Positions 5,317 to 62,941 of a stretch of 64,000 bases of DNA are shown here, piece by piece. The notes under the pieces were generated by a model. That model saw only the letters and a list, made by a program, of their open reading frames with translations. It made no database searches and was not told the origin of the DNA. Position 1 is the stretch's first letter, and each line of letters opens with the position of its first letter. Source of the DNA: Planctomycetota bacterium (GTDB lineage: Bacteria > Planctomycetota > Planctomycetia > Pirellulales > Lacipirellulaceae); the NCBI GenBank assembly GCA_029259945.1, contig JAJDEF010000030.1, positions 62,001 through 126,000 on the forward strand, given 5' to 3'. The translations under genes and the position numbers were made by a program.

Positions 5317-6405
5317 CTAATTCTGCGAGGGATCGTTCGGCCCTTTGCCATTCAAATGACGTCGTAGATAAGTCGCCCGTTCGATATTGCGATCCGCTGC
5401 ATCAAGCTCAACCCCAGAGAGTTTCTGTAAATGAGCTGGCTGGGTGTGGACAAACAGCTTATTGACAGTTGGAATCTCTAAATCGCTGATGAGCCCCAGA
5501 TTGATTCCCATGCGAACGCTAGAGAGCAGATGCATGGTTTCTTCGGAACTGATAGTCTGCGCCGTGCGTAAGATACCGTAAGCTCGGCTCACACGATCAT
5601 GAAGAGTTTCTTGGCTTTCGCGAACAAGAAATTCTCGGGCTTGTCGTTCGTAATCGATGAGTACCGGCACCACGTCGGCAACTTTCTTTGTGAGTTCTTC
5701 TTCGGTTAGGCCCAGGGTGATCTGATTGCTGACCTGGTAGAAATCGCCCATGGCCTGTGAACCTTCGCCATAGAGGCCACGGACGGCAAGGTTGATTTTC
5801 TGTAGGCTCTTGAAGACTTTTTCGATCTGACGCGTAATCACCAAGGCGGGAAGGTGGAGCATGACGCTCACGCGTACCCCTGTGCCGACGTTCGTCGGAC
5901 AGGCAGTTAAATAGCCGAGCTTGTCACTGAACGCATAAGTGAGTTGTTCTTCGATCAGGTCGTCGAGGTCATTGATTTTTTCCCACGCCGAAGTAAGGTC
6001 CAATCCGCTTTGCATCACTTGAAAGCGGAGATGATCTTCTTCGTTGATCATCACGCTAAATCGCTCAGAGGGGTCGATCACAGCAGCGCGTGCCCCTTCG
6101 CTTTCTGAAAGCTCTCGGCTGATCAGTTGGCGTTCGACCAGAAACTGGCGATCCACTTCACTGATATCTCCGACGTTGATAAACAGCGTATCGGGAGACA
6201 GCGAGCCTGTTTGCAGTAGCGCATCAATTCTGGTTCGGACACCTTTTTCGATCTCCGCTCGATCGCTTTCCGTAGTACGAGAGATGAAAGGGAAGTCGGC
6301 AAGATTCCGCGCCAAACGAATTCGACTGCTAATGACAATATCCGACTCGGGGCCGGAACCCTTGAGCCACTCGCCGCTCGAGCTTGCAAGATCGTCTAGA
6401 TGCAT
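5317..6405 (-). CDS. mcsB: Protein arginine kinase McsB
   Basis: A 362-residue ATP:guanido phosphotransferase-family enzyme that phosphorylates arginine residues of proteins, marking them for ClpCP degradation in Gram-positive bacteria. Visible landmarks are SSRIRLARNLADFPF at 26-40, the guanido-kinase NEEDHLR motif at 120-126 and CPTNVGTG containing the reactive Cys at 168-175. Length matches McsB rather than eukaryotic arginine kinases. It lies 84 bp downstream of mcsA in the same orientation, the conserved pair order. Neither ctsR nor clpC is adjacent, unlike in Bacillus. Confidence 0.92.
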   Translation of the reverse strand: MHLDDLASSSGEWLKGSGPESDIVISSRIRLARNLADFPFISRTTESDRAEIEKGVRTRIDALLQTGSLSPDTLFINVGDISEVDRQFLVERQLISRELSESEGARAAVIDPSERFSVMINEEDHLRFQVMQSGLDLTSAWEKINDLDDLIEEQLTYAFSDKLGYLTACPTNVGTGVRVSVMLHLPALVITRQIEKVFKSLQKINLAVRGLYGEGSQAMGDFYQVSNQITLGLTEEELTKKVADVVPVLIDYERQAREFLVRESQETLHDRVSRAYGILRTAQTISSEETMHLLSSVRMGINLGLISDLEIPTVNKLFVHTQPAHLQKLSGVELDAADRNIERATYLRRHLNGKGPNDPSQN

Positions 6406-6489
6406 GATGAGATAAACATTTCCAGCGGTTTTATTGCCGATTTTGAAGGACGAATTTTCAGGCGGAGGAATATTTTTTGGTCATCCGAA

Positions 6490-7023
6490 CTAAGGGGATG
6501 TGTCGTCTGAGGTCTGAGAGGAGGTCTCGATCTCACGGATTTGGTCGCGAAGTTGCGAGGCTTGCTCGTAATCTTCGGCGGCGACAGCTTCTTTCATCTC
6601 TCGGCGTAATCGAATGAGCTGCGTTTGCTGATCGGCTCCCTGCGGGCAGCGTTTGGGTACTTTGCCTATGTGATGGACTTCGTCGTGGATATTCATCAAC
6701 AAGGGTTCAAGCTCATCGGCAAAAAAGGCATAGTCGTGTGGGCAGCCTAGGCGGCCTTTTTTTCTGAATTCTAAAAAAGTGATTCCACACATGGGGCAGG
6801 ATCGCTGATCGAGCCTCGCCAACTGATCCGCAGTTTCTCCAACCGCCAGATGCTGTGCTAGCAAGCCTGCCATGGCAGGCATCACCTCTGCCACTTCTTC
6901 TTCGCTTGGACTCAAGAACGATTGGGCGCACTCTTCACAGAGGTGGAGCTCGTTGGGTTTTCCATCGATCAGATCGGTGATATGAAATGTTGCCTGGCGA
7001 TCACATCTTTGGCACTTCATCAC
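6490..7023 (-). CDS. mcsA: McsA-type zinc-finger/UVR-domain activator of McsB
   Basis: A 177-residue protein with two treble-clef-like cysteine sets: C4/C7 with C29/C32, then CPMC near 77-80 with GC near 93. A C-terminal UVR (UvrB/UvrC) motif, LRREMKEAVAAEDYEQASQL, spans about 138-157. This is the McsA architecture; McsA activates McsB and helps it bind substrate. The frame opens with two consecutive ATGs, so the start is 7023 or 7020. A good vegetative promoter lies about 200 bp upstream at 7229-7256. mcsB follows. Confidence 0.88.
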   Translation of the reverse strand: MMKCQRCDRQATFHITDLIDGKPNELHLCEECAQSFLSPSEEEVAEVMPAMAGLLAQHLAVGETADQLARLDQRSCPMCGITFLEFRKKGRLGCPHDYAFFADELEPLLMNIHDEVHHIGKVPKRCPQGADQQTQLIRLRREMKEAVAAEDYEQASQLRDQIREIETSSQTSDDTSP

Positions 7024-9506: not shown

Positions 9507-10472
9507 CTAATTTACCGATAGATTGCCGGCTGGTGTTTCTGCTCGTAGCTGGGCGATCATTTCTCGAGTCGCTGCTTCGACCGCTTCTTGCCAGCGCTGG
9601 TCGCCAAATCGTTCGCGGTATGCATCGCGGCGATAGGCGAAAATGATTCCTCGTGAATTGTTGACCACCGCGCCTAACCCACGTTGATCGAAAGCCGCGG
9701 CAACGTCTTGCGCGGTACCACCCTGGCTTCCAAAACCTGGCACCAGGAACCAAGTCTGCGGCATCGCCGATCGCAATTCGGCCAGCTGCTCGGGATAGGT
9801 AGCCCCAACAACGGCTCCCACGATGCCGTAGCCCCGATTGCCACGGGTTTGCTCCGACTGTTGCTCGACGTAATCGGCAACCCGACGGTAGAGCGGCTGC
9901 TTGCCTAATAGTTGATCTTGCAGCATGTGGCTGCCAGGGTTCGAGGTTTTGACCAGAACAAACAACCCTGCCCCGCGATCTTTGGCAACGCCAATGAACG
10001 GCTCTAGGCTATCGGCCCCCAGATACGGACTTACGGTGACCGCATCGGCCTCCCAGGCACTTTGACCATCGCGACCCAAGATGCCACGGGCATAGGCTTC
10101 GGCGGTGGAACCAATGTCGTTGCGCTTTCCGTCAAAGAGGGTCAATAGTTTTTTACTTCGGGCGTAGGCAATCACATTACCCAGCGCAACCATCCCGGCT
10201 GGGCCACATTCCTCGAAAAACGCGGCTTGTGGTTTGACGGCTGGTACTAACGGTGCAACGACGTCAATCACGCCTTTGCAAAATTGCTCGTAAGCCTGTG
10301 CCCGGCTGGCAGAATCGTCGTCTCCACCAGTCATGGCAATAGGTAATTGGTCCCATCGCGGGTCTAACCCCACCACCACAGGATTACCTGTTCGCTCAAC
10401 GGCCGACGCTAGGTCGTCTCCAAAATGTCGCACTCGGTTCGGCATCCCTCTCAAGATGCCCTCCTTGTCCAT
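9507..10472 (-). CDS. pyrF: Orotidine 5'-phosphate decarboxylase (long, type 2)
   Basis: Catalyses the last step of UMP synthesis. The 321-residue length and sequence fit the longer PyrF subgroup. VVVGLDPRW lies at about 33-41, the active-site strand TLFDGKRNDIGSTA at about 111-124 carries the catalytic Lys/Asp set, and VSPYLGADSLEPF and LVPGFGSQGG (phosphate loop) follow. The frame begins at 10472; an internal ATG at 10445 (MPNRVRHFGDD) is an equally plausible start because conservation begins there. It is encoded alone, with divergent TIM-barrel gene neighbours. Confidence 0.92.
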   Translation of the reverse strand: MDKEGILRGMPNRVRHFGDDLASAVERTGNPVVVGLDPRWDQLPIAMTGGDDDSASRAQAYEQFCKGVIDVVAPLVPAVKPQAAFFEECGPAGMVALGNVIAYARSKKLLTLFDGKRNDIGSTAEAYARGILGRDGQSAWEADAVTVSPYLGADSLEPFIGVAKDRGAGLFVLVKTSNPGSHMLQDQLLGKQPLYRRVADYVEQQSEQTRGNRGYGIVGAVVGATYPEQLAELRSAMPQTWFLVPGFGSQGGTAQDVAAAFDQRGLGAVVNNSRGIIFAYRRDAYRERFGDQRWQEAVEAATREMIAQLRAETPAGNLSVN

Positions 10473-18263: not shown

Positions 18264-19085
18264 TCATGGAGTGTCGAGAAGGGTTACCGAGCCCGAAAAG
18301 CAGCGATGGGTGCCGTTCTCGGTTTGCACTAGGAGAGCACCCGCCGAGTCGATTCCATCACAGACGCCAGACAATGGGCCCGTCGAGGTATCGATTTGAA
18401 CCTGCTTGCCGGCCAGCAGACATCGTTTTTTCCAGAGATCGAGTAGTTCGCTGTCACGTGTGCCAAGCCATGCAAACCGCTTGGCGATTTGGGTGAGAAT
18501 GGCAAGAAGCACTTCGACGAGTCGAAAATCCCGGTGGGCGAGGTCGCAAAGCGATGTGGCGGTTTTGGCGATTTCTGAGGGAGCGTTGGTGAGCGAATTG
18601 TTGACGTTCACACCGACGCCGAGAACGAACTTCGCTTGTTGAGTCGGCGGAGATTCGATCAACAAGCCACAGATTTTACGGCCGTCGGCATAGACATCGT
18701 TGGGCCACTTAAGGCGGACATCGGCGTCGGGGAGAAATCGCTCGAGGGCTTCGCCAATGGCAAGCCCGGCGGTGAGCGACATCTGCGGCCATTGGTTGGA
18801 GGGGAGCCGCTCCGCCTTCGACTCCATCAGCAACGAAAAAGTCAGGGCACCCTCGGCACCCCACCAGCGGTTGGTGCCACGACCACGGCCGGCAGTTTGA
18901 TTTTCGGTCAGCACCAGTAACGGCAATCGGTGCGATGAGGTTGAAGCAACCTGCAAGGCACGGTCATTGGTCGAGTCGAGCGCGGAGTGAAATTCTACCT
19001 GCTCAACAAAGGTCTCTTGTTGCAATCGACGTAAATCGACATCGGTAAAATTACTAGACTGATTTTCTCTCGAAGAATTTTCCAT
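18264..19085 (-). CDS. birA: Biotin--[acetyl-CoA-carboxylase] ligase
   Basis: A 273-residue monofunctional biotin protein ligase that attaches biotin to the carrier protein of acetyl-CoA carboxylase. The biotinyl-AMP loop GRGRGTNRWWGAEGALTFSL lies at about 67-86, followed by LKWPNDVYADGRKICGLLIE at about 123-142 containing the catalytic Lys. A C-terminal BPL domain ends the protein. No N-terminal helix-turn-helix is visible, so it should not act as the biotin-operon repressor. It lies 15 bp downstream of a ferredoxin-like gene and is probably co-transcribed with it. Confidence 0.9.
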   Translation of the reverse strand: MENSSRENQSSNFTDVDLRRLQQETFVEQVEFHSALDSTNDRALQVASTSSHRLPLLVLTENQTAGRGRGTNRWWGAEGALTFSLLMESKAERLPSNQWPQMSLTAGLAIGEALERFLPDADVRLKWPNDVYADGRKICGLLIESPPTQQAKFVLGVGVNVNNSLTNAPSEIAKTATSLCDLAHRDFRLVEVLLAILTQIAKRFAWLGTRDSELLDLWKKRCLLAGKQVQIDTSTGPLSGVCDGIDSAGALLVQTENGTHRCFSGSVTLLDTP

Positions 19086-19100
19086 GAGCGCGGCTGACTT

Positions 19101-20156
19101 TTAGAAGTCCAATTCGTCAAGCGAATCGATTAGCCGATCCAACTCGTCCTTCGGCGGTTCAACATTCTTTATCGTAGCGCGATGCTTGGGCATGCCAACT
19201 TCTTTGCCGACAGACTCTCGACCTGCAAGTAGAAGCTGTTCGTCTCGTTCTCGGGCAGCAACCTCTGCCGCCTTTTCGGCGCCTGGCGCGCCAGGATCGG
19301 GAGCACCAAACAGCAGCGACAAGTCGATTTTCATGCTACCGGCTATTGCTGGGCTGCCAGCAATGGTGGGGGTCTTGTGTTGCGGAAAAATGATCGCATT
19401 TTCTGGACACACGCGGCTACAAGCGGGGCATCCTAGCCGGCAGTTGTCAGGCTGCTCGACCAAGATAGTCTCTTGAGCGTCGATGCCGTAAACGCCGAAT
19501 AAACAAAAATCGATGCACTCCAGACAATTCGTACAACGGCTCATGTCGATCACCGGATACCAACGCCGTGTGGGATCTTCGTCGATGACGATTGGCCCTT
19601 GCAAAGCGGTTTCCGCAGAATCCGAGGCCAAATACCGCTCCATCTGCGCTGGCCTCGGCTTGCCGTTGATCCAGCCTGCCAGTTCTACGGTCGGGGTGGC
19701 AAGTTCCTCAGCAATGCGCTGGATTTCGTCGACATAGATCGAAGCGTCACTATACGCTCGCAAGTCGAGGCAATAGATTCGGCGAGACGGCAGATCGCGA
19801 TGATCGATAACCCGTTCTTGATTGTCTTGTTCAATGTCTTGGTTCTCTTCGCTTTCGTCACTCTCGCCCAACGAATTGAGAAGCGTGGTACCTTCTTGGC
19901 CACGAATCTGATTGCGATCCAAAATCCATCGGGCGGCACGCGGAAACAGCCAACTGCAAACAACCAAATCGCCGGAGATGCCCGACAAGCACAGCATTCC
20001 CGTACCATCCGACTTCAGGTCATAAAGGTTAGGAACGACCGTCACATCAAAGCCGTGCTTGCCCAGTAAACTGGCAACAACTTGCTCTTCTAGCTCCCGC
20101 TTTTTGGGGTTCTGGCTGCGGCTTTGAGAAACAACAACGGTAAGTCGGTGGGCCAT
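19101..20156 (-). CDS. 4Fe-4S dicluster ferredoxin-like protein
   Basis: A 351-residue cytoplasmic protein with two predicted 4Fe-4S clusters: C208/C211/C214/C218 (CTNCLECIDFC) and C239/C243/C246/C250 (CRLGCPACSRVC). The N-terminal 180 residues form an alpha/beta region with CSWLFPRAA near 67-75 and a highly acidic stretch (about 97-118). The C-terminal 90 residues are charged and partly coiled. The first-domain family is not recognised, so partner and pathway are unknown. It precedes birA by 15 bp. It could be an electron carrier for an unidentified reductase. Confidence 0.7.
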   Translation of the reverse strand: MAHRLTVVVSQSRSQNPKKRELEEQVVASLLGKHGFDVTVVPNLYDLKSDGTGMLCLSGISGDLVVCSWLFPRAARWILDRNQIRGQEGTTLLNSLGESDESEENQDIEQDNQERVIDHRDLPSRRIYCLDLRAYSDASIYVDEIQRIAEELATPTVELAGWINGKPRPAQMERYLASDSAETALQGPIVIDEDPTRRWYPVIDMSRCTNCLECIDFCLFGVYGIDAQETILVEQPDNCRLGCPACSRVCPENAIIFPQHKTPTIAGSPAIAGSMKIDLSLLFGAPDPGAPGAEKAAEVAARERDEQLLLAGRESVGKEVGMPKHRATIKNVEPPKDELDRLIDSLDELDF

Positions 20157-32513: not shown

Positions 32514-32972
32514 CTACTGGTTCATTTGGCCTTTAATCGTGCGTTGAGTCACCTCCCAAACGGCTTTCAGGTGCTCAAGATAGGCCTCTGCAGGTAATAA
32601 TTCTGAGCCATCGCCCGTGAGCTCAAAGAGCCAGCCCTTGCCGTATTTGTCGACGTTGATTGCCGAAGGGTCTTTTAGCAAGATCTCGTTGAACCGGGTC
32701 AATATCCCTGGCAAAGGAGTGTAGAGCGATGCTTCGGCTTTTTGGCTTTCGATTTGGCCAATTTCTTGCCGCATCGCAAGCATGGTTCCAACGGGAACTT
32801 CCCAGTCCAGAAAGTAAACGTCTTGCAACAGCCGAACCGCGTAGGCTGCAAAACCAAAACGGTAGCGGTCATTGCCCAACGGCAGTGCCCACATATGATT
32901 TCGGGCATAGCGACGGTCGGTCGGAAACTCCGCCTCGTACTCGCCCATCATGAAAGAGATATTTTCAGGCAT
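32514..32972 (-). CDS. GcvH-like lipoyl-carrier protein
   Basis: A 152-residue protein whose residues about 24-120 match glycine cleavage H protein along its whole length. HMWALPLGNDRYRFGFAAYA corresponds to the H-protein THEWV/VGIT start. IESQKAEASLYTPLPG holds the lipoyl lysine K78, and ILLKDPSAINVDKYGKGWLFEL the typical NP..IN.D.YG.GWL end. A 30-residue helical C-terminal tail is extra. The ATG at 32972 lies 19 bp after the radical SAM gene stop; the open frame further upstream is antisense-like. No gcvT or gcvP is present, so it probably serves a different enzyme, perhaps one of its operon partners. It is the last gene of the six-gene reverse run. Confidence 0.78.
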   Translation of the reverse strand: MPENISFMMGEYEAEFPTDRRYARNHMWALPLGNDRYRFGFAAYAVRLLQDVYFLDWEVPVGTMLAMRQEIGQIESQKAEASLYTPLPGILTRFNEILLKDPSAINVDKYGKGWLFELTGDGSELLPAEAYLEHLKAVWEVTQRTIKGQMNQ

Positions 32973-32991
32973 AGGTTGTTGGTAATGTCGG

Positions 32992-34296
32992 CTAGGTGTA
33001 ACGCACGTCGTGGTGCTCGGGTTCGAAGAATGACGGCAGGAGGGCGTCGATACGCAACAGACCTTGCCGTGTGAGCGTGATGCGATTTCCCTCAACGCAA
33101 GCGTAGCCGGCTTGCTGATACTCCTCCCAGATCGATTGCCAGTGCTCGACGATATTAACGCCGAATTTTTCTTGAAAATAGTCGGTCTCAAGATATCCAC
33201 GCTTAAGAAGCAGGATAAGTTCGCGTACCAAGCGTTGGTGTGCTGTAGTTTTTAAGCCGCGACCTAGTGGTAATTTCCCGTCTTCAAGCGAGCCGCAATA
33301 ATCTTCCCAATCCGGCAGGTTTTGGTAGTGGATACCCGAAACGTGGCCAAAGCTGGCAATGCCCGTGGCTAGCAAGTCGCTACCCTTCCAAAGGTTGTCT
33401 CGATAGCTGAAGTTCACACGACCCGGGTCTTTGACCAAGGTGTAGGCACTAGAAACTGAGTAACCCGCTTGTTGGAATTTGTTAAACGCGTAGTCCACCC
33501 AGTTGCGTTTTGTCTCCCAATCGGCAATGGGCGTTTCGATGCGATTGCCGAGAATGTCTTGCGAATAGATGGTGTTAAATGGCAACTCCATCTGGTAAAT
33601 CGTCACGCTGTCGGGCGCCAGGTCGACCGCTTGTTGAACGGTGTTTTGCCAAGTGCTGTCAGAGTCTCCAACCATGCCTGCGATCAGATCGAGGTTGACA
33701 TTCTCGAAATCAGCAGCCTGAATCCAGGGCCATGCTTTGTAGATTTCTTTCGACTCATGGGCTCGCCCGTTTTCGCGAAGAATCGCATCATCAAAATGCT
33801 CGACCCCTAGGCTAAGACGTGTTACGCCGAGTTCTCGCAGCGTGTGAACCTTCGCTTCGCTGAGCGTGCCAGGTTCGCATTCGAACGTGACTTCTTCTGC
33901 CTGATCCCAATGGATGTTGGCACGCAACCGGTCAACCAATCGGGTGAGTTGTTTAGGACTTAAAAACGAAGGCGTCCCGCCGCCAAAGTAAACAAAGCGA
34001 AACGGACGGTCGCCCATCACGGGCAATTTGCTGACCAACTTGATTTCGCGGGAAAGAGCAGCCAGATAACGCTCGACCTCTTGCGAATTTTTTTCGGTGA
34101 ACACCTTGAAGTAGCAAAACTTGCAGCGTTTCCTGCAGAACGGCAGGTGCAGATAGAGGCCCAGGGGCACTTCGGTAGGCGGGGATTCGAGCGATCGCCT
34201 CACCTCGTCACACTGGTCTGCCGACCACTGAGAAAAAGGCGGGTAGTTGCTGATGAAGTAACTGCCCACTTCAGTTTTGGTTGGTTCTGCGGTCAT
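32992..34296 (-). CDS. HemW/coproporphyrinogen dehydrogenase-like radical SAM protein
   Basis: A 434-residue radical SAM protein of the HemN/HemW group. LYLHLPFCRKRCKFCYF (about 47-63) contains the cluster cysteines C54, C58 and C61. YFGGGTPSFLSPKQL (about 105-119) is the SAM-binding GGGTP motif, and a HemW-type C-terminal domain follows (about 350-430). The CxC cysteine after the triad, typical of true HemN, is absent, as in HemW-like proteins. Function in haem handling is possible, but its operon links it to a lipoyl carrier and carboxylate-reduction enzymes. The start is ATG 34296. Spacing is 30 bp to the propeller gene and 19 bp to the GcvH-like gene. Confidence 0.82.
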   Translation of the reverse strand: MTAEPTKTEVGSYFISNYPPFSQWSADQCDEVRRSLESPPTEVPLGLYLHLPFCRKRCKFCYFKVFTEKNSQEVERYLAALSREIKLVSKLPVMGDRPFRFVYFGGGTPSFLSPKQLTRLVDRLRANIHWDQAEEVTFECEPGTLSEAKVHTLRELGVTRLSLGVEHFDDAILRENGRAHESKEIYKAWPWIQAADFENVNLDLIAGMVGDSDSTWQNTVQQAVDLAPDSVTIYQMELPFNTIYSQDILGNRIETPIADWETKRNWVDYAFNKFQQAGYSVSSAYTLVKDPGRVNFSYRDNLWKGSDLLATGIASFGHVSGIHYQNLPDWEDYCGSLEDGKLPLGRGLKTTAHQRLVRELILLLKRGYLETDYFQEKFGVNIVEHWQSIWEEYQQAGYACVEGNRITLTRQGLLRIDALLPSFFEPEHHDVRYT

Positions 34297-34326
34297 GGAG
34301 TTTTTGGTTAGAGACGAAGTTATTCT

Positions 34327-35466
34327 TCACTCTTTCTTACCAAAGCAATACAGGGTGCCATCAAGGTTGCCAATGATTAGCCGACCATCGGCAACGCTGG
34401 GCGAGGCAAGAAAGCTACCCCCGGCCTCGTATTTCCATCCTTCCTTGCCAGTGGTGAGGTTGAGAGCATAGAGACGACCGCGTTTGGTTGCTAATAGCAC
34501 TCGGTCGTCGGAAATAATCGGAGAGCTTTCGACGTTGCTGCGGACGGCATATTTCCATTGAAGCTTACCCGTCGAAGGGTTTAACGCAAAGACTTGCTTG
34601 CCAAGTGAACTGTAGACCAACGTACGATGATCGACTGTTGCGGCAGTGCGAATAGCGTCAAGACTCTTTGGGTTTTGGTACTCCCATCGGATTGCAAGCG
34701 TACTGGTCGAAATCGAATAAAGGGTGCCCATCTCAGTGCCGAAGAAGACATGCCCCTCGAACAAGGCGGGAGTTGAACCCGTGGGCCCATCGATATCGAC
34801 GCCCGCAAGTTCCTTTCCATTGTTGACGTCGACCACATGCAGCCGTTGGTCGCAACCTGCCAGCAGCACCCGATCCTCGACCACCAAAGGCCAACAGCGT
34901 AAGGGGGCTTCGATTTTGAATTGCCAACGACGTTCCCCGGTTTTTGCATCCAACGAATGAAGTTCGCCAGATTCAGTGGTCACCAATACCTGGCCTTCGA
35001 AAACGTTGGGCGCAGCATAAACTTCACCTGCGACAGTTTGCGACCAAATTTCTTCGCCCGAATCGGCCTGCAGCGTGCGAACCACACCGTTGAAGTCGCC
35101 AACGAAAATCCGGCCGTCGACCACTGCCGCAGCGGCAAGAAATCCGCTGTCGGCGAACTTTTTTTCCCAGAGGACTTCACCGTCGGCTAGTCGTAAAGCG
35201 TAGAAGGTGCCATCCACATCACCGACGTAAACAGTGCCATCCACAACAATGGCAGTTGCTTCGAACCCGCTGTCGGCGACCGTGTGCTTCCAAAGAATTT
35301 CCAGCGAATTTGGCAGACGCGAAGAGGCAACCCCAGTGGCTCTTGCATCGCCACGGACAAAAGGCCACTGAGCAAATGTCGGCGTACCTTCGAATAGCAG
35401 CAGAATCAAAACAACGAAATACGCGCCTCGATTTCTGAACACCGTGGTATCACCAAGCAAGTTCAT
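34327..35466 (-). CDS. Secreted PQQ-type beta-propeller repeat protein (BamB-like)
   Basis: A 379-residue exported protein: a signal peptide (hydrophobic AYFVVLILLLFEG, cleavage near TFAQ) followed by seven or so PQQ-like blades. Repeats such as VDGTVYVGDVDGTFYALRLA, VDGRIFVGDFNGVVRTLQ, SDDRVLLATKRGRLYALNLT and ADGRLIIGNLDGTLYCF show the regular G.(V/L)YAL..TG pattern. It lacks a recognisable dehydrogenase active site and may be structural or scaffold-like. I chose ATG 35466, 17 bases inside the 3' end of the Fe-alcohol dehydrogenase gene; the frame extends further upstream antisense-free but unconserved. Confidence 0.8.
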   Translation of the reverse strand: MNLLGDTTVFRNRGAYFVVLILLLFEGTPTFAQWPFVRGDARATGVASSRLPNSLEILWKHTVADSGFEATAIVVDGTVYVGDVDGTFYALRLADGEVLWEKKFADSGFLAAAAVVDGRIFVGDFNGVVRTLQADSGEEIWSQTVAGEVYAAPNVFEGQVLVTTESGELHSLDAKTGERRWQFKIEAPLRCWPLVVEDRVLLAGCDQRLHVVDVNNGKELAGVDIDGPTGSTPALFEGHVFFGTEMGTLYSISTSTLAIRWEYQNPKSLDAIRTAATVDHRTLVYSSLGKQVFALNPSTGKLQWKYAVRSNVESSPIISDDRVLLATKRGRLYALNLTTGKEGWKYEAGGSFLASPSVADGRLIIGNLDGTLYCFGKKE

Positions 35467-36598
35467 AAAGCTGTAATAGTTCGGCATGGGAAACGGGGAT
35501 TGGGTTGAACGAGGCCGTCCACTGCTGGGCTGCGGAGTCCGCAAGTTCAGAAAGGCGATGACGTTCGACCCCACACTTGCTTAGTTTATCAGAGAGCCCT
35601 GCCTCGCTGGCGACGTTTTGTAGAAAATCGGCCAAGGATTCGGCACCACCAGTGGGGCAGTGATCGTGACTCGCGGTGGTTTCTAGTAACTCGCGGTACC
35701 AGGAGTCGCAACGTGCTCCATTAAAACGAACCACATGGGGCAGCATCAGCGCAATCGCTTCGCCGTGGGCAATCCCATAAACGGCCGTTAACGGATTGGC
35801 CAAGGCGTGGGCAGCACCGAGCATCGAGTTTTCTATCGCCAGCCCGGCTAAACAGGCCCCCAGTTGCATTTCTCCGCGGGCGCCGATGTCATCGGGATTT
35901 TGTAACACGCGAAGAAAGTTGGGTGCCAAACGTTTCCAAGCCTCGCGACTGAATTGGGAAGAGGTCTCGCTACGCTTTGTTGTCACATAAGTTTCTACCG
36001 CATGCGACAAAGCGTCGAAGCCAGAGAGAGCCGCTACCCGTGGAGGCTGGGTAAGAGTGAGTTCGGGATCAAGGATCGCCGCGCGAAAAGCGGCCCGAGG
36101 GTCGCCACAGGCCATTTTCTGGTGCGTTTTTGCGTCGGAAATGAGAGCGAAGGATTGCGATTCGCTACCCGTGCCGGCGGTGGTGGGGACGGCGATCATG
36201 GGCAACAGTGGGCCGGTTGCTTTGCCCACGCCCCAATAGTCCTGCATTTTTCCGCCGCAGGAGTAGAGAAAGTTGATTCCCTTAGCGCAATCCATCGAAC
36301 TACCGCCACCCAAACCGACGATCAGGTCGGGCCGAAATTCATTGGCGATGGCGAGCCCAGCCTCGACTTCAACGGTGGTTGGATTTTCTTTGACACCCTC
36401 GAACAATCGCGTGATGATGCCCACCGCTTCGAGAGCAGCGATGCCGCGCGCAGTGTGGCCCGCAGCAATGACTCCTGTGTCGCTAACAACAAGTACGCGC
36501 TGAGCCGACAACTCTTGAGCCTCCTTGCCAAGCTCAACAACTTTGCCAGGCCCAAAGAGGAAACGCGTGGACGATGAGTAATCAAGAATCGTCATCAT
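35450..36598 (-). CDS. Iron-containing alcohol dehydrogenase
   Basis: A 382-residue group III alcohol dehydrogenase. LIVGLGGGSSMDCAKG (about 92-107) is the NAD-binding loop. VPTTAGTGSE (about 137-146), LSGFDALSHAVETY (about 208-221, metal Asp and His) and GAAHALANPL..YGIAHGEAIALMLPH (about 271-296, two more His ligands) follow in order. Two consecutive ATGs open the frame. It could reduce the aldehyde produced by the adjacent aldehyde dehydrogenase, 50 bp upstream. The substrate is unknown. Confidence 0.88.
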   Translation of the reverse strand: MMTILDYSSSTRFLFGPGKVVELGKEAQELSAQRVLVVSDTGVIAAGHTARGIAALEAVGIITRLFEGVKENPTTVEVEAGLAIANEFRPDLIVGLGGGSSMDCAKGINFLYSCGGKMQDYWGVGKATGPLLPMIAVPTTAGTGSESQSFALISDAKTHQKMACGDPRAAFRAAILDPELTLTQPPRVAALSGFDALSHAVETYVTTKRSETSSQFSREAWKRLAPNFLRVLQNPDDIGARGEMQLGACLAGLAIENSMLGAAHALANPLTAVYGIAHGEAIALMLPHVVRFNGARCDSWYRELLETTASHDHCPTGGAESLADFLQNVASEAGLSDKLSKCGVERHRLSELADSAAQQWTASFNPIPVSHAELLQLYELAW

Positions 36599-36649
36599 AG
36601 GGCTGAATGTGGCGTTTTTTGGGGCTGATTATGAAAAGCAACAAATACT

Positions 36650-38092
36650 TTAGGGAGCAATTTGTAACGCTCGGCTGCGATAGAGGAAATCAAATAGGTT
36701 GCCTTCGTGTGGCTGTAGCCAATCGAGCTGGGGTGTTGGGATTTCACCCATATTCAAACGATCGATATCACGGCTTGCAATCAGATCGCGTCGGAAATTT
36801 TCATCGGCGGTGATGGCGGTTGTGACCAACGTAGGACCAATTGCCGACAGCATTTTTTCTTGCGGACATTCGACCACACTGACGGCGGGGAACATGTATT
36901 CTCGATTGGCGGCAGGAGCCGTTGGGCTCCCACAATGCAGTACTACGGGACGCAGGTAGGCAACCGGAGGATTTTCGACTAGTCGCTCGCCGTAATTTGC
37001 GGTTATGTGGGTTGTTTGCGGATCTTCGATATCTCGTTCCAGTGCATCCCAGATACTGGCGGCTGCGCCTTCCGTAGTAAAGGCAGCCAGTCCGGCGCGG
37101 GGATCGTCGGGGGGAAACACATCGATGGGCCCAAGTTTTGCGGCCAGCGCTTGGGCGATTTCTTTCGTGTGGCGCGAAGCATAGATACTGCCGCAATTAA
37201 TACAACTTCGACCGCCGTTACGATAGACGCTGTCGACCATCAGACCGACGTACCGCTGCCAATCGTCGACACAATCGTCCCCTAGCAAAATCTTACTGAA
37301 ACCGGGGCCATGCACTTGGACTTTTGGATTGCCGGCATATTGTTCGACCGTCTGCGATCCGCCAAAGATCATGCTACGTCGACAGCTTACTAGAATCGCA
37401 CCGCCGATATCCGCTCCCGCCCCTGGGTAAAGGCAAAATGCTTCGACAGGAATACCTGCTTCGACCATCGCGGCAAAGATTCGATACGGGGTCCAAGGCT
37501 CGCTACTGCCTGGCTTAAGCACCAAGCCCATCTGCAGTGCGATTACGGGCAACCAAAGTGTGTGGACACCGGGCGAATTATTAGGGAGCACCGCTCCGAG
37601 TGCATCGCATTGGGCTTGGTAACTGACGGTCACGCCACGGCCTTCTTCGCCGTAGCCACGAGCCAACGTGTCAAGATTCAGTCCGCGAGTGAGACAATCA
37701 AGTATTTGCCCCATATTTTTCAGAACAAACGCGTTCTTCGTCATATTGGCTTGGCACATCGAGAGGGGCATACCCGTGGTTGCCGATTGCTGTCCGATGA
37801 AATCGGTGGGCGACTGCTGCGAATCGCCCACCGAAAGAGTGCCATTTTCGAAAAGTTCGCCGGCAGCTTTGCATTTCTCGATCAACTCGGCTGGCGGCAT
37901 TGCCAGTAGCGCTTGTCGTGCTCGTTTGGCCTTATGAGCATCGCGTCGAATAATACCTGCACCAACCACATGGACACGGGCGACTAGTTCACCGGTTTCG
38001 AAGTGGACAATTTCGTCGACGTCGAGTGATCGATAGGGCTCGCCCCAGCGGATGGCAGGTAATTCGATCATGCAAGTTGCCGAGGAAGACAA
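36650..38092 (-). CDS. Aldehyde dehydrogenase-superfamily protein (possible acyl reductase)
   Basis: A 480-residue member of the ALDH superfamily. LVLKPGSSEPWTPYRI (about 190-205) fits the NAD-binding loop and MIFGGSQTVEQYAGNP (about 240-255) the cofactor strand. NGGRSCINCGSIYASR (about 294-309) holds the catalytic Cys in place of the usual NAGQxC. It lacks an obvious ExxGKxP-type general-base motif at the expected place, which fits acyl-reducing members better than oxidising ones. Gene order, after an acyl-activating enzyme and before an alcohol dehydrogenase, suggests acyl-to-aldehyde reduction as done by LuxC. This is an inference. Confidence 0.75.
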   Translation of the reverse strand: MSSSATCMIELPAIRWGEPYRSLDVDEIVHFETGELVARVHVVGAGIIRRDAHKAKRARQALLAMPPAELIEKCKAAGELFENGTLSVGDSQQSPTDFIGQQSATTGMPLSMCQANMTKNAFVLKNMGQILDCLTRGLNLDTLARGYGEEGRGVTVSYQAQCDALGAVLPNNSPGVHTLWLPVIALQMGLVLKPGSSEPWTPYRIFAAMVEAGIPVEAFCLYPGAGADIGGAILVSCRRSMIFGGSQTVEQYAGNPKVQVHGPGFSKILLGDDCVDDWQRYVGLMVDSVYRNGGRSCINCGSIYASRHTKEIAQALAAKLGPIDVFPPDDPRAGLAAFTTEGAAASIWDALERDIEDPQTTHITANYGERLVENPPVAYLRPVVLHCGSPTAPAANREYMFPAVSVVECPQEKMLSAIGPTLVTTAITADENFRRDLIASRDIDRLNMGEIPTPQLDWLQPHEGNLFDFLYRSRALQIAP

Positions 38093-38099
38093 AAATTAG

Positions 38100-38237
38100 C
38101 CACGGATGGACACAGATAAACACGGATGGTTGGAGACGTATCTAGAACGGTACTGTTGGAACCCTATTTGAACATTTATTGCTTTTCCCTGTGATTTCGT
38201 TTTCTGAATATCTGCGTTCATCCGTGTTCATCTGTGG
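38100..38237. repeat. Inverted repeat between acyl-activating enzyme and ALDH genes
   Basis: Arm 1 (38100-38127, starting CCACGGATGGACACAGAT) and arm 2 (38210-38237) are reverse complements at about 22 of 28 positions. All differences are A/G transitions. They fill most of the 161-base gap between two genes of the same operon. Elements of the CCACAGATGAACACGGATG type are common in environmental bacterial genomes. As transcribed they would form a long hairpin inside the mRNA. Confidence 0.75.
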
Positions 38238-38253
38238 TTTCTTTAACGGCCTC

Positions 38254-39378
38254 TTAATAAACGCCAACCGTTGTAGCGGAAGCTAGGCGGTGGAAGGGTC
38301 GCACTTCACTGATGCCGTCCCAGGGGTATTTTTCGTAGGGTTGTTCGCGTTCGCCTTCGTCGCGTTCGAGAAAACCGGGGACGAAGAATTCTTTGGTCAG
38401 GGTGGTTAATTTTGCTCGACCAGTTTGGCCATATCCAACGACGCGATCCGTATCGTCAAAATCGACCACTTCGATCACGGCGCGAGGCTGTGGGGCATAG
38501 TAAGTAATTTTGTAGTTATTCGCAGCATGACAAGGCCCCGAAGCAGCCAACCCCATCAAGGTGTTGCCATAGGTCGGCGTCATGTAGATACCACTCTCTT
38601 CAGGCGGCCCGCCAAAAAGTTCCTCGACACAAAATCTAGTCCACTGCGGAGTGAACTCCGTACCGCCCGAGAAAATTCCAGTGACACCTTGTTCAGCAAG
38701 GCTGGTGCCACGTTCCTCCAGCGCAAGGCAAAGCGATTCGATCAGTTTGGGAGTACCAAACATACACCGGATGTCGTGCCCCGCGCTAAGAATGGTAATC
38801 GCCTGATCGATGCAATGTTTTTTGTATTCTTCGAGATGCTCCATCCAACCTTTCTGAATGAGCTTGACCACCCAGCGTGGGTCGAGGTCGATGCAAAAAG
38901 AAATCCCCCCACGATGTTGGGCCAGATGCTCGACCGCCAATCGCAAACGACGTGGCCCCGAAGGGCCTAACATGAGCCAATTGGCACCGCGCGGAAAGTA
39001 CTTGTCAGGCAACGTTTCGCTGAAAAGCGAATAGTCGGTACGAAAATCGTCGAGGGCGATCCGGCTTTTAGGAATTCCGGTGGTACCGCCCGTTTCAAAA
39101 ACATAGACAGGCTTGTCGGCGAGACCTTTGGGAACCCAACGGCGAACAGGGCCCCCTCGCAACCATTCATCCTCGAAGGGGTCAAATTTTTTGAGGTCGT
39201 CGAACGACCGAATCTCTTGGAGTGGATCGAACTTCATCTCCGACTTTTTTTCGAGCCAGAAGGGGCAGCCTGTGGATTCGTGAAAATGCCAAGCCACCAT
39301 CTCGACGGCATGTGCGTCGAGTAACGCACGCGCTGCGGCGATCTCTTTCTCCGAAGCGATTTGAGCCGTGTCGTTCAC
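38254..39378 (-). CDS. LuxE/phenylacetate-CoA ligase-like adenylate-forming enzyme
   Basis: A 374-residue protein of the acyl-activating superfamily, shorter than full AMP ligases and similar in size to LuxE acyl-protein synthetases. YVFETGGTTGIPKSR (92-106) is the phosphate-binding loop. IFSGGTEFTPQWTRF (about 234-248) and MTPTYGNTLMG (about 266-276, A5-type motif) follow, and a VVGYGQTGRAKLTTLTKEF segment resembles the A7-A8 region. A LuxE-like enzyme activates a carboxylic acid as acyl-AMP and passes it to a thiol. It opens the six-gene reverse run. The natural acid and thiol acceptor are unknown. Confidence 0.75.
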   Translation of the reverse strand: MNDTAQIASEKEIAAARALLDAHAVEMVAWHFHESTGCPFWLEKKSEMKFDPLQEIRSFDDLKKFDPFEDEWLRGGPVRRWVPKGLADKPVYVFETGGTTGIPKSRIALDDFRTDYSLFSETLPDKYFPRGANWLMLGPSGPRRLRLAVEHLAQHRGGISFCIDLDPRWVVKLIQKGWMEHLEEYKKHCIDQAITILSAGHDIRCMFGTPKLIESLCLALEERGTSLAEQGVTGIFSGGTEFTPQWTRFCVEELFGGPPEESGIYMTPTYGNTLMGLAASGPCHAANNYKITYYAPQPRAVIEVVDFDDTDRVVGYGQTGRAKLTTLTKEFFVPGFLERDEGEREQPYEKYPWDGISEVRPFHRLASATTVGVY

Positions 39379-39454: not shown

Positions 39455-39910
39455 CTAGGAATTCGTTGAGGGGGTGCTGCCAAGCTGGGCGAGCACCTGA
39501 ATCACACCGTTAAGATGTGCTAGCCGAGGGCCGAACCGATCGACAAATTCGTTTAACATGAATTCGCCACCCTCCATGTCGTCGGCGGTTTCGGCAATTT
39601 CGTCCGTCAGCCGCTCTAGGTACTCAATCTGCACTTGGCTCAACGATTCGGCGGCCTGACGACAAGAGTTGGCAAGACGCGGATTCGCATTGCGCCATTG
39701 ATGAAGTTCTTGGGAGCGTTGTTTGTGGGTGGTCGCCATCACACCGACCAACTCCTCCAGTATCTCGTTCGTTCGATCCTGAGCGGCTAATACCTCGCGT
39801 AGCAGTTCAGACTGTTCTATATGCAAGTTGTTAGAAAGCTCGTTAGTGCTCCCTGCAGTTACGTCCACTTGAGAAAACATTGCAGGTGTCGGCTGATGGC
39901 TTTGGGACAT
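39455..39910 (-). CDS. Helical protein of unknown function
   Basis: A 151-residue protein (ATG 39910; the frame extends 10 codons more). A disordered Ser/Thr/Gln-rich start is followed by helices: EQSELLREVLAAQDRTNEILEEL (about 33-55, split), then SCRQAAESLSQVQIEYLERL and a Leu-rich end before TPSTNS. The pattern suggests a coiled coil. No family is recognised, and it is transcribed just upstream of the acyl-activating gene (76 bp gap), perhaps in the same direction by chance. Confidence 0.6.
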   Translation of the reverse strand: MSQSHQPTPAMFSQVDVTAGSTNELSNNLHIEQSELLREVLAAQDRTNEILEELVGVMATTHKQRSQELHQWRNANPRLANSCRQAAESLSQVQIEYLERLTDEIAETADDMEGGEFMLNEFVDRFGPRLAHLNGVIQVLAQLGSTPSTNS

Positions 39911-40308
39911 CGAACGATCGTTCCTTTCTCTATGGGTCAAAGTCCGAACGCAGAAAAATTCTGTCGCTGAACTAGGTAGGTTTATCTACAATCAGTTTCA
40001 TCAACATCTTGGAATGCCAGCCCATCGCATTCTCTCGGCGCTGGCTGGTTACTCGAAGCCTTGCTAGCACGCGGATAATGCAAAGCACGCTAGCTAGTAG
40101 AGCTAGTAGAGCGAGGGCTGCCTCTCCTATCCCCATTCTAATAAAACTTGGACAAATTCATAGCATTGGGCCGGAGCTTTCATTACAGATCTCTGAGCTA
40201 AAGTTAGCACCGGATTGCGCTCGATTGAGGGGGTACAGGCCCATGATTTTGCACTGAGCGACCAACCCCCACCCGGCCTACTTTTCTGGATCGATAGAGA
40301 TACCCCTG
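39911..40308. other. Divergent intergenic region
   Basis: These 398 bases hold an imperfect 9-mer tandem repeat (GAGCTAGTA-like, 40088-40112) and AT-rich stretches, but no supported gene or clear promoter pair. It separates the reverse helical-protein gene from the forward pair encoding an unknown protein and an SNF2 helicase. Confidence 0.45.
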
Positions 40309-61487: not shown

Positions 61488-62941
61488 ACGACTTCTCGCG
61501 TGTGGAAAGAATGTTTAGGAGATCGTTTTATAACTAGATCACGACATAACTCTTTAATGCGAGCTAAGCCATTAAGATCAATGAGATCGGAAGATTTTGT
61601 TGGAACCGAGGATTTACTAACCATCCACTGTTGAAGTGCCGTGGACGAAAGGCTGCCGGGGTGCAATATGTCGACCAATCCCAACTGCTGCAGCTTTTGA
61701 GCACGAATCCATTGTTCGGTCCTGGGAAAAACTCGTGGAACTAGTAACGCCTTTTTCTGAAAAGAGAGGATCGAACAGACGGTGTTGTAGCCGCCCATGG
61801 TAATCACGCGATCGGCCCGGCTAATGAGCTGATCGGCCTCAGTAGAAAACTTCAGGACGCATAGGTTGGGGCAATTTGTCGCACTTTCTTGCAGCGAACG
61901 CAGTTGCTCTTCTGGCATGAACGGGCCCGTCAACAACACCCCGCGAAATCCTGACTCTGGCAGACTGTCGATAAAAGCTCGGGCCAGTGGGTATCCATCC
62001 TGACCACCGCCGAGAGTGCAAACGATGAATTGGCCCTTATCATCCTCGAATTTCACCTCTTCGCTTCCTGTGGTTGCCAATCGTGAGGACTGATTCAAAT
62101 AGCCCGTGTACCGAATTTTATGGATGCTTTCCGAAGGCCAACAATATTCCGAAGCGGTGTCATAAACTTGTGGATCACCATAGACCCAAATTTCGTCAAA
62201 AAATGCTTCAATGGCTTGGTGACTTTCTGAATCTTTCCATTCGGCAAGTACCGTCTCAGGATCATCCAAAACATCACGTATACCCAACACACACTTCCGA
62301 TTAAATTGCTGCTTCATGAATCGCAGTGCAGGAAGCAGTTCGCCAAATGCGCCGGTAGGTACCTTATCAACAATAAACACATCGGGCTGGAAAACCTTCA
62401 TCGCAGAGCAGATCGACTCGGCACGCAATCGCACAAGATCGTGGACCGAGATCCCAAGTTGTCCCGAGACATAATTGCCGTTTGTATCTTTTTGAAGACG
62501 TGGCAGAGTTATGCAGTCGGCTCCAGGAGGGAGTGAAAAGAAATTTGCCTCGTGGGCACCCGTAATGAGTAGTGACGTGGCCCCAAGTTCAGATTCCGCC
62601 AACGACTGTGCGATTAAGAGATTCCGTCGAAAGTGCCCTAGCCCCATGGTGTCGTGTGAATAAAGGGCTATTCGAGGCCGCCTACTTTTACTCGGTCCTG
62701 CAGCAGCCTGGTCAAGTCGCAGGCTGTTACTCGGATCGTTAGAATCTCTCGCCCGCTGGTCTTCTCGCATCGTCGCGTTCCCGCTTTCTGCCTGATGAGA
62801 GAACCCAGGCGACCCATTTGCCATACACATCTCCGGCAAGGGAATCGCTGCGGAGCATGCTATTTGGTTCAACGATGATTGAATTCGATGCATTTTTGTA
62901 AAGCTAGTTCGTAATGGGTATGAATAGACCAACGGTATCAT
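61484..62941 (-). CDS. GT28/MurG-like glycosyltransferase
   Basis: A predicted glycosyltransferase of up to 485 residues, resembling the MurG-type GT28 family in its C-terminal half. RIALYSHDTMGLGHFRRN (about 89-106) is the N-terminal GHxxR loop. FIVCTLGGGQDGYPLA (about 315-330) and ADRVITMGGYNTVCSILSF (about 383-401) are donor-site landmarks. The first 85 residues are low in conservation; the ATG at 62941 overlaps the previous stop (ATGA) but starts at 62821 or 62770 are plausible. The probable role is glycosylation of a lipid or polymer in the operon's pathway. Confidence 0.8.
   Translation of the reverse strand: MIPLVYSYPLRTSFTKMHRIQSSLNQIACSAAIPLPEMCMANGSPGFSHQAESGNATMREDQRARDSNDPSNSLRLDQAAAGPSKSRRPRIALYSHDTMGLGHFRRNLLIAQSLAESELGATSLLITGAHEANFFSLPPGADCITLPRLQKDTNGNYVSGQLGISVHDLVRLRAESICSAMKVFQPDVFIVDKVPTGAFGELLPALRFMKQQFNRKCVLGIRDVLDDPETVLAEWKDSESHQAIEAFFDEIWVYGDPQVYDTASEYCWPSESIHKIRYTGYLNQSSRLATTGSEEVKFEDDKGQFIVCTLGGGQDGYPLARAFIDSLPESGFRGVLLTGPFMPEEQLRSLQESATNCPNLCVLKFSTEADQLISRADRVITMGGYNTVCSILSFQKKALLVPRVFPRTEQWIRAQKLQQLGLVDILHPGSLSSTALQQWMVSKSSVPTKSSDLIDLNGLARIKELCRDLVIKRSPKHSFHTREVV

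Follow-up and report, generated by a model that had tools for sequence, protein, structure and literature searches.

Six consecutive genes on the reverse strand of a planctomycete genome are read here, with moderate confidence, as the end of one gene module encoding an aryl-acid reductase (module A) joined to the start of a second module with lipoyl, iron-sulfur (Fe-S) and terpenoid functions (module B), and they point to a conserved, apparently undescribed planctomycete pathway, probably for the reduction of an aromatic acid to the alcohol. The genes lie in a stretch of 64,000 nucleotides, referred to as the window (positions 62,001 to 126,000 of contig JAJDEF010000030.1, assembly GCA_029259945.1; G000:C23:62001-126000 in our numbering), from a member of the Lacipirellulaceae whose assembly comprises 3.48 Mb in 44 contigs and is 92% complete. 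Module A consists of an adenylating enzyme, a protein of the aldehyde dehydrogenase (ALDH) superfamily, an iron-containing alcohol dehydrogenase (Fe-ADH), a beta-propeller protein and a HemN-like radical S-adenosylmethionine (SAM) enzyme, to which relatives add a chorismate-lyase-like protein and a flavoprotein resembling tryptophan halogenases and CmlS. Module B consists of a GcvH-like protein and a dicluster ferredoxin protein and, elsewhere, also of a CobW-like GTPase, a second radical SAM enzyme, a DUF116-polyprenyl synthase fusion and toroid/SHC-like cyclases. A first-pass annotation had treated the six genes as one functional unit, in which a lipoyl arm could accept an activated acyl group; its interpretation is partly supported by the analysis described here.

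Layout and conservation of the run

All six open reading frames (ORFs) were confirmed to be open on the minus strand where the first-pass annotation had placed them (table 1), and the gaps of 161, -17 (with the ATG at 35466), 30 and 19 bp (with the ATG at 32972) are as it gave them, the second gap being 51 rather than 50 bp.

Table 1. Genes of the six-gene run and the ferredoxin gene of the same window.
Feature	Coordinates	Strand	Evidence
EhpF-type aryl-adenylating enzyme ('LuxE-like'), 374 aa (predicted)	38254..39378	-	EhpF profile match; Pfam; 147/198 class genomes
ALDH-superfamily acyl reductase (predicted)	36650..38092	-	Pfam Aldedh 5.7e-19; alignment to solved ALDHs
Iron-containing alcohol dehydrogenase	35450..36598	-	Pfam Fe-ADH 3.9e-46
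BamB/PQQ-type beta-propeller	34327..35466	-	Pfam PQQ_2 1.5e-61
HemN-like radical SAM enzyme	32992..34296	-	Pfam Radical_SAM 2.4e-20; HemN structure match
GcvH-like protein	32514..32972	-	Pfam GCV_H 2.7e-17; conserved lipoyl-type Lys; placed in module B
Dicluster 4Fe-4S ferredoxin protein	19101..20156	-	Fer4 domains; ~12 kb from GcvH-like in window

The linkage of the genes, which the first-pass annotation had made dependent on their staying together in relatives, is not accidental, since the same order recurs in the class and, from the LuxE-like to the radical SAM gene, beyond it. Of 40 class loci fetched, six have the order LuxE-like, ALDH, Fe-ADH, beta-propeller, radical SAM, GcvH-like complete; the LuxE-like/ALDH adjacency is far wider there than the full six-gene order. 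Among 80 named loci, from which the named Pirellulales records come and which are the 80 top-ranking ones of 577 confirmed stretches and uninformative on the wider spread, the LuxE-like gene is followed by a same-strand ALDH gene in 77; many of these loci stop at contig ends, 23 extend as far as the radical SAM gene, and in 17 of these a GcvH-like gene comes next among the module genes. Outside the class, the order LuxE-ALDH-FeADH-(propeller)-radical SAM is kept in 11 of 20 loci, some module A genes being absent from the stretch read in the other nine; no GcvH-like match was found in the 11 within the 18-20 kb read, L227 being an exception to this pattern.

Presence and absence were counted in a class-level sample of 198 genomes at per-genome thresholds of E<=1e-60 (radical SAM), E<=1e-100 (Fe-ADH), E<=1e-25 (GcvH-like), E<=1e-40 (ferredoxin protein) and E<=1e-90 (SHC-like). 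The LuxE-like gene was detected in 147 genomes, nearly always as one close copy 62-86% identical to that of the window; a few genomes carry extra, distant matches (31-32% in three among the matches listed). Orthologues of the radical SAM enzyme and of Fe-ADH were found in 148 and 143 genomes, respectively. The LuxE-like and radical SAM genes are common to 146 genomes, with the former alone in G071 and the latter alone in G146 and G157 (Fisher p 7e-43), although this p-value, like the one given below, overstates independence because the absences of module A cluster in the family groups f12 and f3, in which neither LuxE-like, radical SAM nor Fe-ADH genes were found among the genomes listed. The absence of the radical SAM orthologue in f12 is not a search failure, since four f12 genomes that are without it still give 17-22 other radical SAM matches.

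The same clustering is what would be expected if co-occurrence reflected the shared ancestry of core genes lost jointly in a few clades, the two modules being functionally unrelated, and the distance between the modules in many genomes would suit such an account as well. It is considered unlikely, in that the dispersed genes still move as blocks and the absences of the GcvH-like and ferredoxin genes are matched though spread over many families.

Three further observations concern the surroundings and relatives of the LuxE-like gene. A small gene upstream of it (39455-39940, minus strand), with a weak Pfam match to DUF6809 only, forms a cluster present in 35 of the 100 loci, each of at least 12 kb, on which neighbour-gene clustering drew. 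Three of the nine incomplete loci outside the class (L190, L191 and L192, family f58) carry a distant homologue (31-33%), and the 19.5 kb read there yielded no further gene of module A. Finally, LuxE-like proteins 72-77% identical to that of the window occur in genomes titled Gammaproteobacteria (L106), Candidatus Kuenenia (L134 and L147) and Thermoanaerobaculia (L150), which are possibly misassigned or mixed metagenome-assembled genomes.

The predicted aryl-acid reductase and its candidate substrate

The name 'LuxE-like' is kept here as a label, the identity that it implies having been abandoned: the closest solved relative of the first enzyme is EhpF (3l2k/3hgu), an adenylating enzyme, matched by a profile of 20 LuxE-like proteins with an E of 1.5e-49 over positions 15-357 of 365, and Pfam yields no LuxE or LuxC match. 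The AMP-binding match of the protein in Pfam is weak and below cut-off (9.8e-5), and the AMP-binding C-terminal domain is absent among its Pfam matches; EhpF itself is not known to carry this domain. The ALDH-superfamily protein probably starts at the ATG around 38071, where the proteins of relatives begin, and its C297 corresponds to the catalytic Cys in an alignment with solved ALDHs, in agreement with the first-pass reading. Residue-conservation alignments, from which rows were removed for length, identity or duplication (ALDH 10/129, radical SAM 9/63, Fe-ADH 3/81, LuxE-like 4/141; none for the 36 GcvH-like and 27 ferredoxin proteins), contain C297 and H261 each in at least 97% of the 119 ALDH copies aligned. 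His261 of the window protein occupies the position of the general-base (hydrolytic) Glu, where a Gln is found in the Pantoea partner.

This partner belongs to the Pantoea phenazine cluster of the D-alanylgriseoluteic acid (AGA) type, in which an AMP-binding gene is directly followed by an ALDH gene, the products being 30% (LuxE-like) and 25% (ALDH) identical to those of the window; the same adjacent pair is found in Burkholderia. On the strength of the EhpF match, the homologous Pantoea pair and the ALDH residues, the planctomycete pair is placed, by homology, among the two-component aryl carboxylic acid reductases. The acid-to-aldehyde-to-alcohol logic first proposed for the initial three genes is likewise supported at the level of their predicted functions. 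In the grixazone system GriC/GriD, 3-amino-4-hydroxybenzoate is reportedly adenylated and then reduced, the acyl-AMP being reduced by the partner, and the portion of the source consulted names no carrier protein (PMC10179220). The planctomycete pair resembles GriC/GriD and the AGA-type EhpF/ALDH pair in that an AMP-forming enzyme without a recognised C-terminal domain stands beside an ALDH-like protein, the likeness to GriC/GriD resting on their description and not on a comparison of their sequences; it differs in being followed by Fe-ADH, propeller and HemN-like radical SAM genes, and in being kept through most of the class sample. In a plasmid collection, 28 records carry a LuxE-like homologue, labelled, among the matches listed, as AMP-binding protein, arylcarboxylate reductase (Streptomyces) or phenazine biosynthesis protein, or left unnamed. 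One plasmid record without annotation (NZ_CP119993.1, Halomarina) holds an adjacent EhpF-like and ALDH pair at 95390-97757.

A clue to the substrate is provided by a gene outside the six, which in other lineages and some class members lies downstream of the radical SAM gene and encodes a chorismate-lyase-like protein of ~180 aa, with genes for a CmlS/tryptophan-halogenase-like flavoprotein, a glycosyltransferase and a 4HBT thioesterase nearby. It is found in 147 of the 198 class genomes, 145 of which it shares with the LuxE-like gene, two genomes carrying the one and two the other without its companion; it lies <=5 kb from the radical SAM gene in 40/146 genomes and <=6 kb from an SHC-like gene in 32 of 37 genomes hand-picked from the 122 SHC-like-positive ones. 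The AlphaFold model of the protein (pLDDT 90.7) is matched best by Foldseek to the DUF98 protein 2nwi (E 2.8e-8) and also to UbiC (1jd3, E 3.6e-5), and hhalign against E. coli UbiC gives an E of 1.2e-5 at a probability of 81%, with the four product-contact residues of UbiC aligned. The partner gene of the relatives thus encodes a protein like the UbiC and DUF98 chorismate lyases in fold and product-contact residues, which no curated model matches, one copy (L041) giving only DUF4388 at 0.096. Because the gene co-occurs with the LuxE-like gene, a hydroxybenzoate is suggested as the substrate of the reductase.

An aryl-polyene/flexirubin cluster was considered and rejected, as an inspection by eye of the ORFs surrounding the chorismate-lyase-like gene, not an exhaustive one, revealed no ketosynthase or acyl carrier protein; L179 and L067 contain a PaaK/FlxY-like CoA ligase, and four loci have an ORF identified by eye as FabZ-like. 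The parallel with a cyanobacterial cluster holding ubiC, ubiA and terpenoid genes (PMC8073705) serves as a lead only.

The order of the acid, aldehyde and alcohol steps would be identical in a LuxE/LuxC-type reduction of a fatty acid to a fatty alcohol (e.g. for wax, ether lipid or a membrane alcohol), and the terpenoid/lipid genes near the loci of relatives could be read in favour of such an aliphatic substrate. That Pfam gives only AMP-binding and Aldedh for the pair, that EhpF is a phenazine-pathway protein and that the partner is chorismate-lyase-like make this explanation improbable.

The fourth gene, left uninterpreted by the first-pass annotation, encodes the propeller, which sits between Fe-ADH and the radical SAM enzyme in many loci and is probably exported, judging by eye from its hydrophobic N-terminus. 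The fifth product is a radical SAM protein as annotated at first, with the CX3CX2C motif at C54/C58/C61 and these cysteines in at least 97% of 54 copies, but not specifically a HemW: its NCBIfam score for HemW (161 bits against a cut-off of 205.4) is under those for HutW (199/400) and HemN (184/324.95), all of them below cut-off. Against structures, its profile matches HemN (1olt, E 4.3e-54) and the methyltransferase NocN (9p2u, E 2.6e-33), an enzyme acting on indolyl substrates. Thus, it shares the HemN-like core and the motif with HemN and the class C radical SAM methyltransferases (NocN, HutW), while the window protein falls under every curated cut-off tested. These matches, together with the NirJ/AhbD models among those scored by the second radical SAM enzyme of module B, could also suggest a tetrapyrrole as the compound altered by module A, with a porphyrin derivative as the substrate of the HemN/HutW-like enzyme and a propionate side chain reduced by the ALDH and its adenylating partner; with all curated cut-offs missed, methyltransferases such as NocN among the HemN-like proteins and a chorismate-lyase-like partner, this is quite unlikely.

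The GcvH-like protein and module B

The lipoyl-type lysine of the GcvH-like protein was correctly identified at first pass as K78, counted from the ATG at 32972 (residue 79 in alignments begun one codon earlier), and is found in all seven aligned GcvH-like proteins, that of the window included, and in at least 97% of 36. The protein has Pfam GCV_H and the ES.KA lipoyl-type lysine in common with GcvH of the glycine cleavage system; it differs in missing both curated GcvH cut-offs (64.8 bits against 115.85 and 76.8 against 117), in its extended C-terminus, in its dicluster ferredoxin partner and in the lack of P, T or L proteins beside it, no glycine cleavage partners being present among the neighbouring ORFs scanned with Pfam, as the first-pass annotation had also noted. 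A second GcvH, scoring 122 bits, is encoded on another contig of the window genome.

The GcvH-like gene is found in 114 of the 198 class genomes, every one of which is positive for the radical SAM enzyme, and the dicluster ferredoxin gene also in 114, with 112 genomes in common (Fisher p 1.9e-31 within the 148 radical SAM-positive genomes), G096 and G117 carrying only the former and G043 and G174 only the latter. The two genes lie <=5 kb apart in 93 of the 112 genomes. Among 33 genomes outside the class that carry a LuxE-like orthologue, a ferredoxin relative (E<=1e-20) is found in 25 and some GcvH-like match (E<=1e-10) in 30, weak ones of which may be ordinary GcvH. Fifteen stretches from 14 of these genomes were read for context: in 10, the GcvH-like gene is printed beside a CobW-like GTPase gene, followed, with variable completeness, by genes for the ferredoxin protein, an HpnH/NirJ-like radical SAM enzyme, a DUF116-polyprenyl synthase fusion, an alpha-alpha toroid protein and SHC-like proteins. 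Stretch L224 covers module A only, in L227 the GcvH-like gene lies between the radical SAM and ferredoxin genes, and L223 has the two modules side by side in divergent orientation. SHC-like genes are present in 122/198 class genomes, that of the window not being one of them, and the second radical SAM enzyme misses the curated cut-offs of the models with which it scores. The model of the ferredoxin partner (pLDDT 63.7) has no Foldseek match at E<=0.001. Because the GcvH-like and ferredoxin genes form a separate operon in other lineages, the six-gene run spans the junction of two modules, and the GcvH-like gene appears to open a second, terpenoid-like operon that adjoins the reductase run.

In the first-pass proposal, the GcvH-like protein would receive the acyl group from the LuxE-like enzyme on its lipoyl thiol and present it to the ALDH, with the radical SAM enzyme modifying substrate or carrier. 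The proposal may draw on the conserved Lys, on the GcvH-like gene being <=5 kb from the radical SAM gene in 63/114 genomes (63/69 outside family f13) and on the modules adjoining in some other lineages, e.g. L223, and yet it is very doubtful: a role as acceptor of the acyl group is not favoured, since the reductase genes are retained in the absence of the GcvH-like gene, which is undetected at E<=1e-25 in 34 of the 148 radical SAM-positive genomes, sits in a separate operon elsewhere and lies beside the radical SAM gene in 0/45 f13 genomes, and since no carrier is named for the homologous systems in the portion of the GriC/GriD source cited above. A redox or sulfur chemistry of the module B lipoyl arm is more likely than acyl transfer from the adenylating enzyme. 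A GcvH-type protein is tied to a redox system in LbpA of sHdr sulfur oxidation (PMC6067878); LbpA and the present protein are alike in type and in having a redox partner, whereas terpenoid genes accompany the latter and the loci read showed the dicluster ferredoxin protein but no recognisable Hdr/sulfur-oxidation genes, whole genomes not having been searched for Hdr.

Other features of module B loci are the recurrence of DUF116 fused to a polyprenyl diphosphate synthase (L221:3486-5261 and L193:118-1968), a gene of the biotin protein ligase family directly downstream of the ferredoxin partner gene in the window (18264-19085, minus strand) and, in L067 (family f17), a second divergent GcvH-like gene between the propeller and Fe-ADH genes, with a DGC-domain protein beside the first (9825-10274, 5731-6840).

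Proposed pathway and its significance

From the gene order, homology, co-occurrence and conserved residues observed, we infer a substrate, direction, product and lipoyl-arm role as follows. The chorismate-lyase-like protein would convert chorismate to hydroxybenzoate, which the EhpF-like enzyme would activate to the aryl-AMP; the ALDH would take the acyl group onto its own cysteine and, using NAD(P)H, reduce it to the aryl aldehyde, from which Fe-ADH would form a benzyl-type alcohol, and the radical SAM enzyme and the flavoprotein might tailor the compound. In module B, the lipoyl arm would serve redox or sulfur chemistry together with the ferredoxin protein, and both modules perhaps act in one meroterpenoid-like pathway. 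As a tentative extension, the product could be an undescribed aromatic-terpenoid built from chorismate and polyprenyl diphosphate, with the GcvH-like protein, assisted by the ferredoxin protein and the CobW-like GTPase, serving as a dedicated dithiol carrier of redox equivalents or sulfur in radical SAM/terpenoid chemistry. Searches of the open-licence literature turned up no account of the wider gene system, and none of these genes is named in the portion consulted of the main text of an essentiality study of Planctopirus limnophila (PMC10632474).

Several observations, besides the overstated p-values, weigh against the two-module reading and the pathway built on it. The pairing of AMP-binding and ALDH genes is not universal in the family, since an ALDH match (E<=1e-20) is present in only six records of the plasmid collection and, in the one Streptomyces LuxE-like copy opened, a polyketide synthase follows instead of ALDH. 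The best NCBIfam match of Fe-ADH is the regulator-like ErcA, below cut-off, and the enzyme could run as an oxidant instead; the propeller is without a place in the proposed pathway. As to the chorismate-lyase-like gene, no copy was detected in the incomplete assembly that contains the window, its copies in L176 and L161 have no Pfam or NCBIfam match, and effector domains of the GntR/HutC type, which share the fold, occupy many of the top Foldseek ranks. Outside the class, the ferredoxin partner was not found (E<=1e-20) in 8 of the 33 LuxE-like-positive genomes, so the modules are separable, and the best GcvH-like match lies <=50 kb from the LuxE-like gene in only five of the 33.

Splitting the run into two modules gives two directly testable units, namely an aryl-acid reductase predicted to work without a carrier and a lipoyl-type protein co-inherited with ferredoxin and terpenoid genes. 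If the lipoyl protein does act in module B, this would be a new context for lipoate, outside the 2-oxoacid, glycine and sulfur-oxidation enzymes. Finally, the presence of the LuxE-like gene in about three-quarters of the class genomes is unusual for secondary metabolism; so wide a spread, nearly always as one close copy, may point to a core component of the cell in these planctomycetes.

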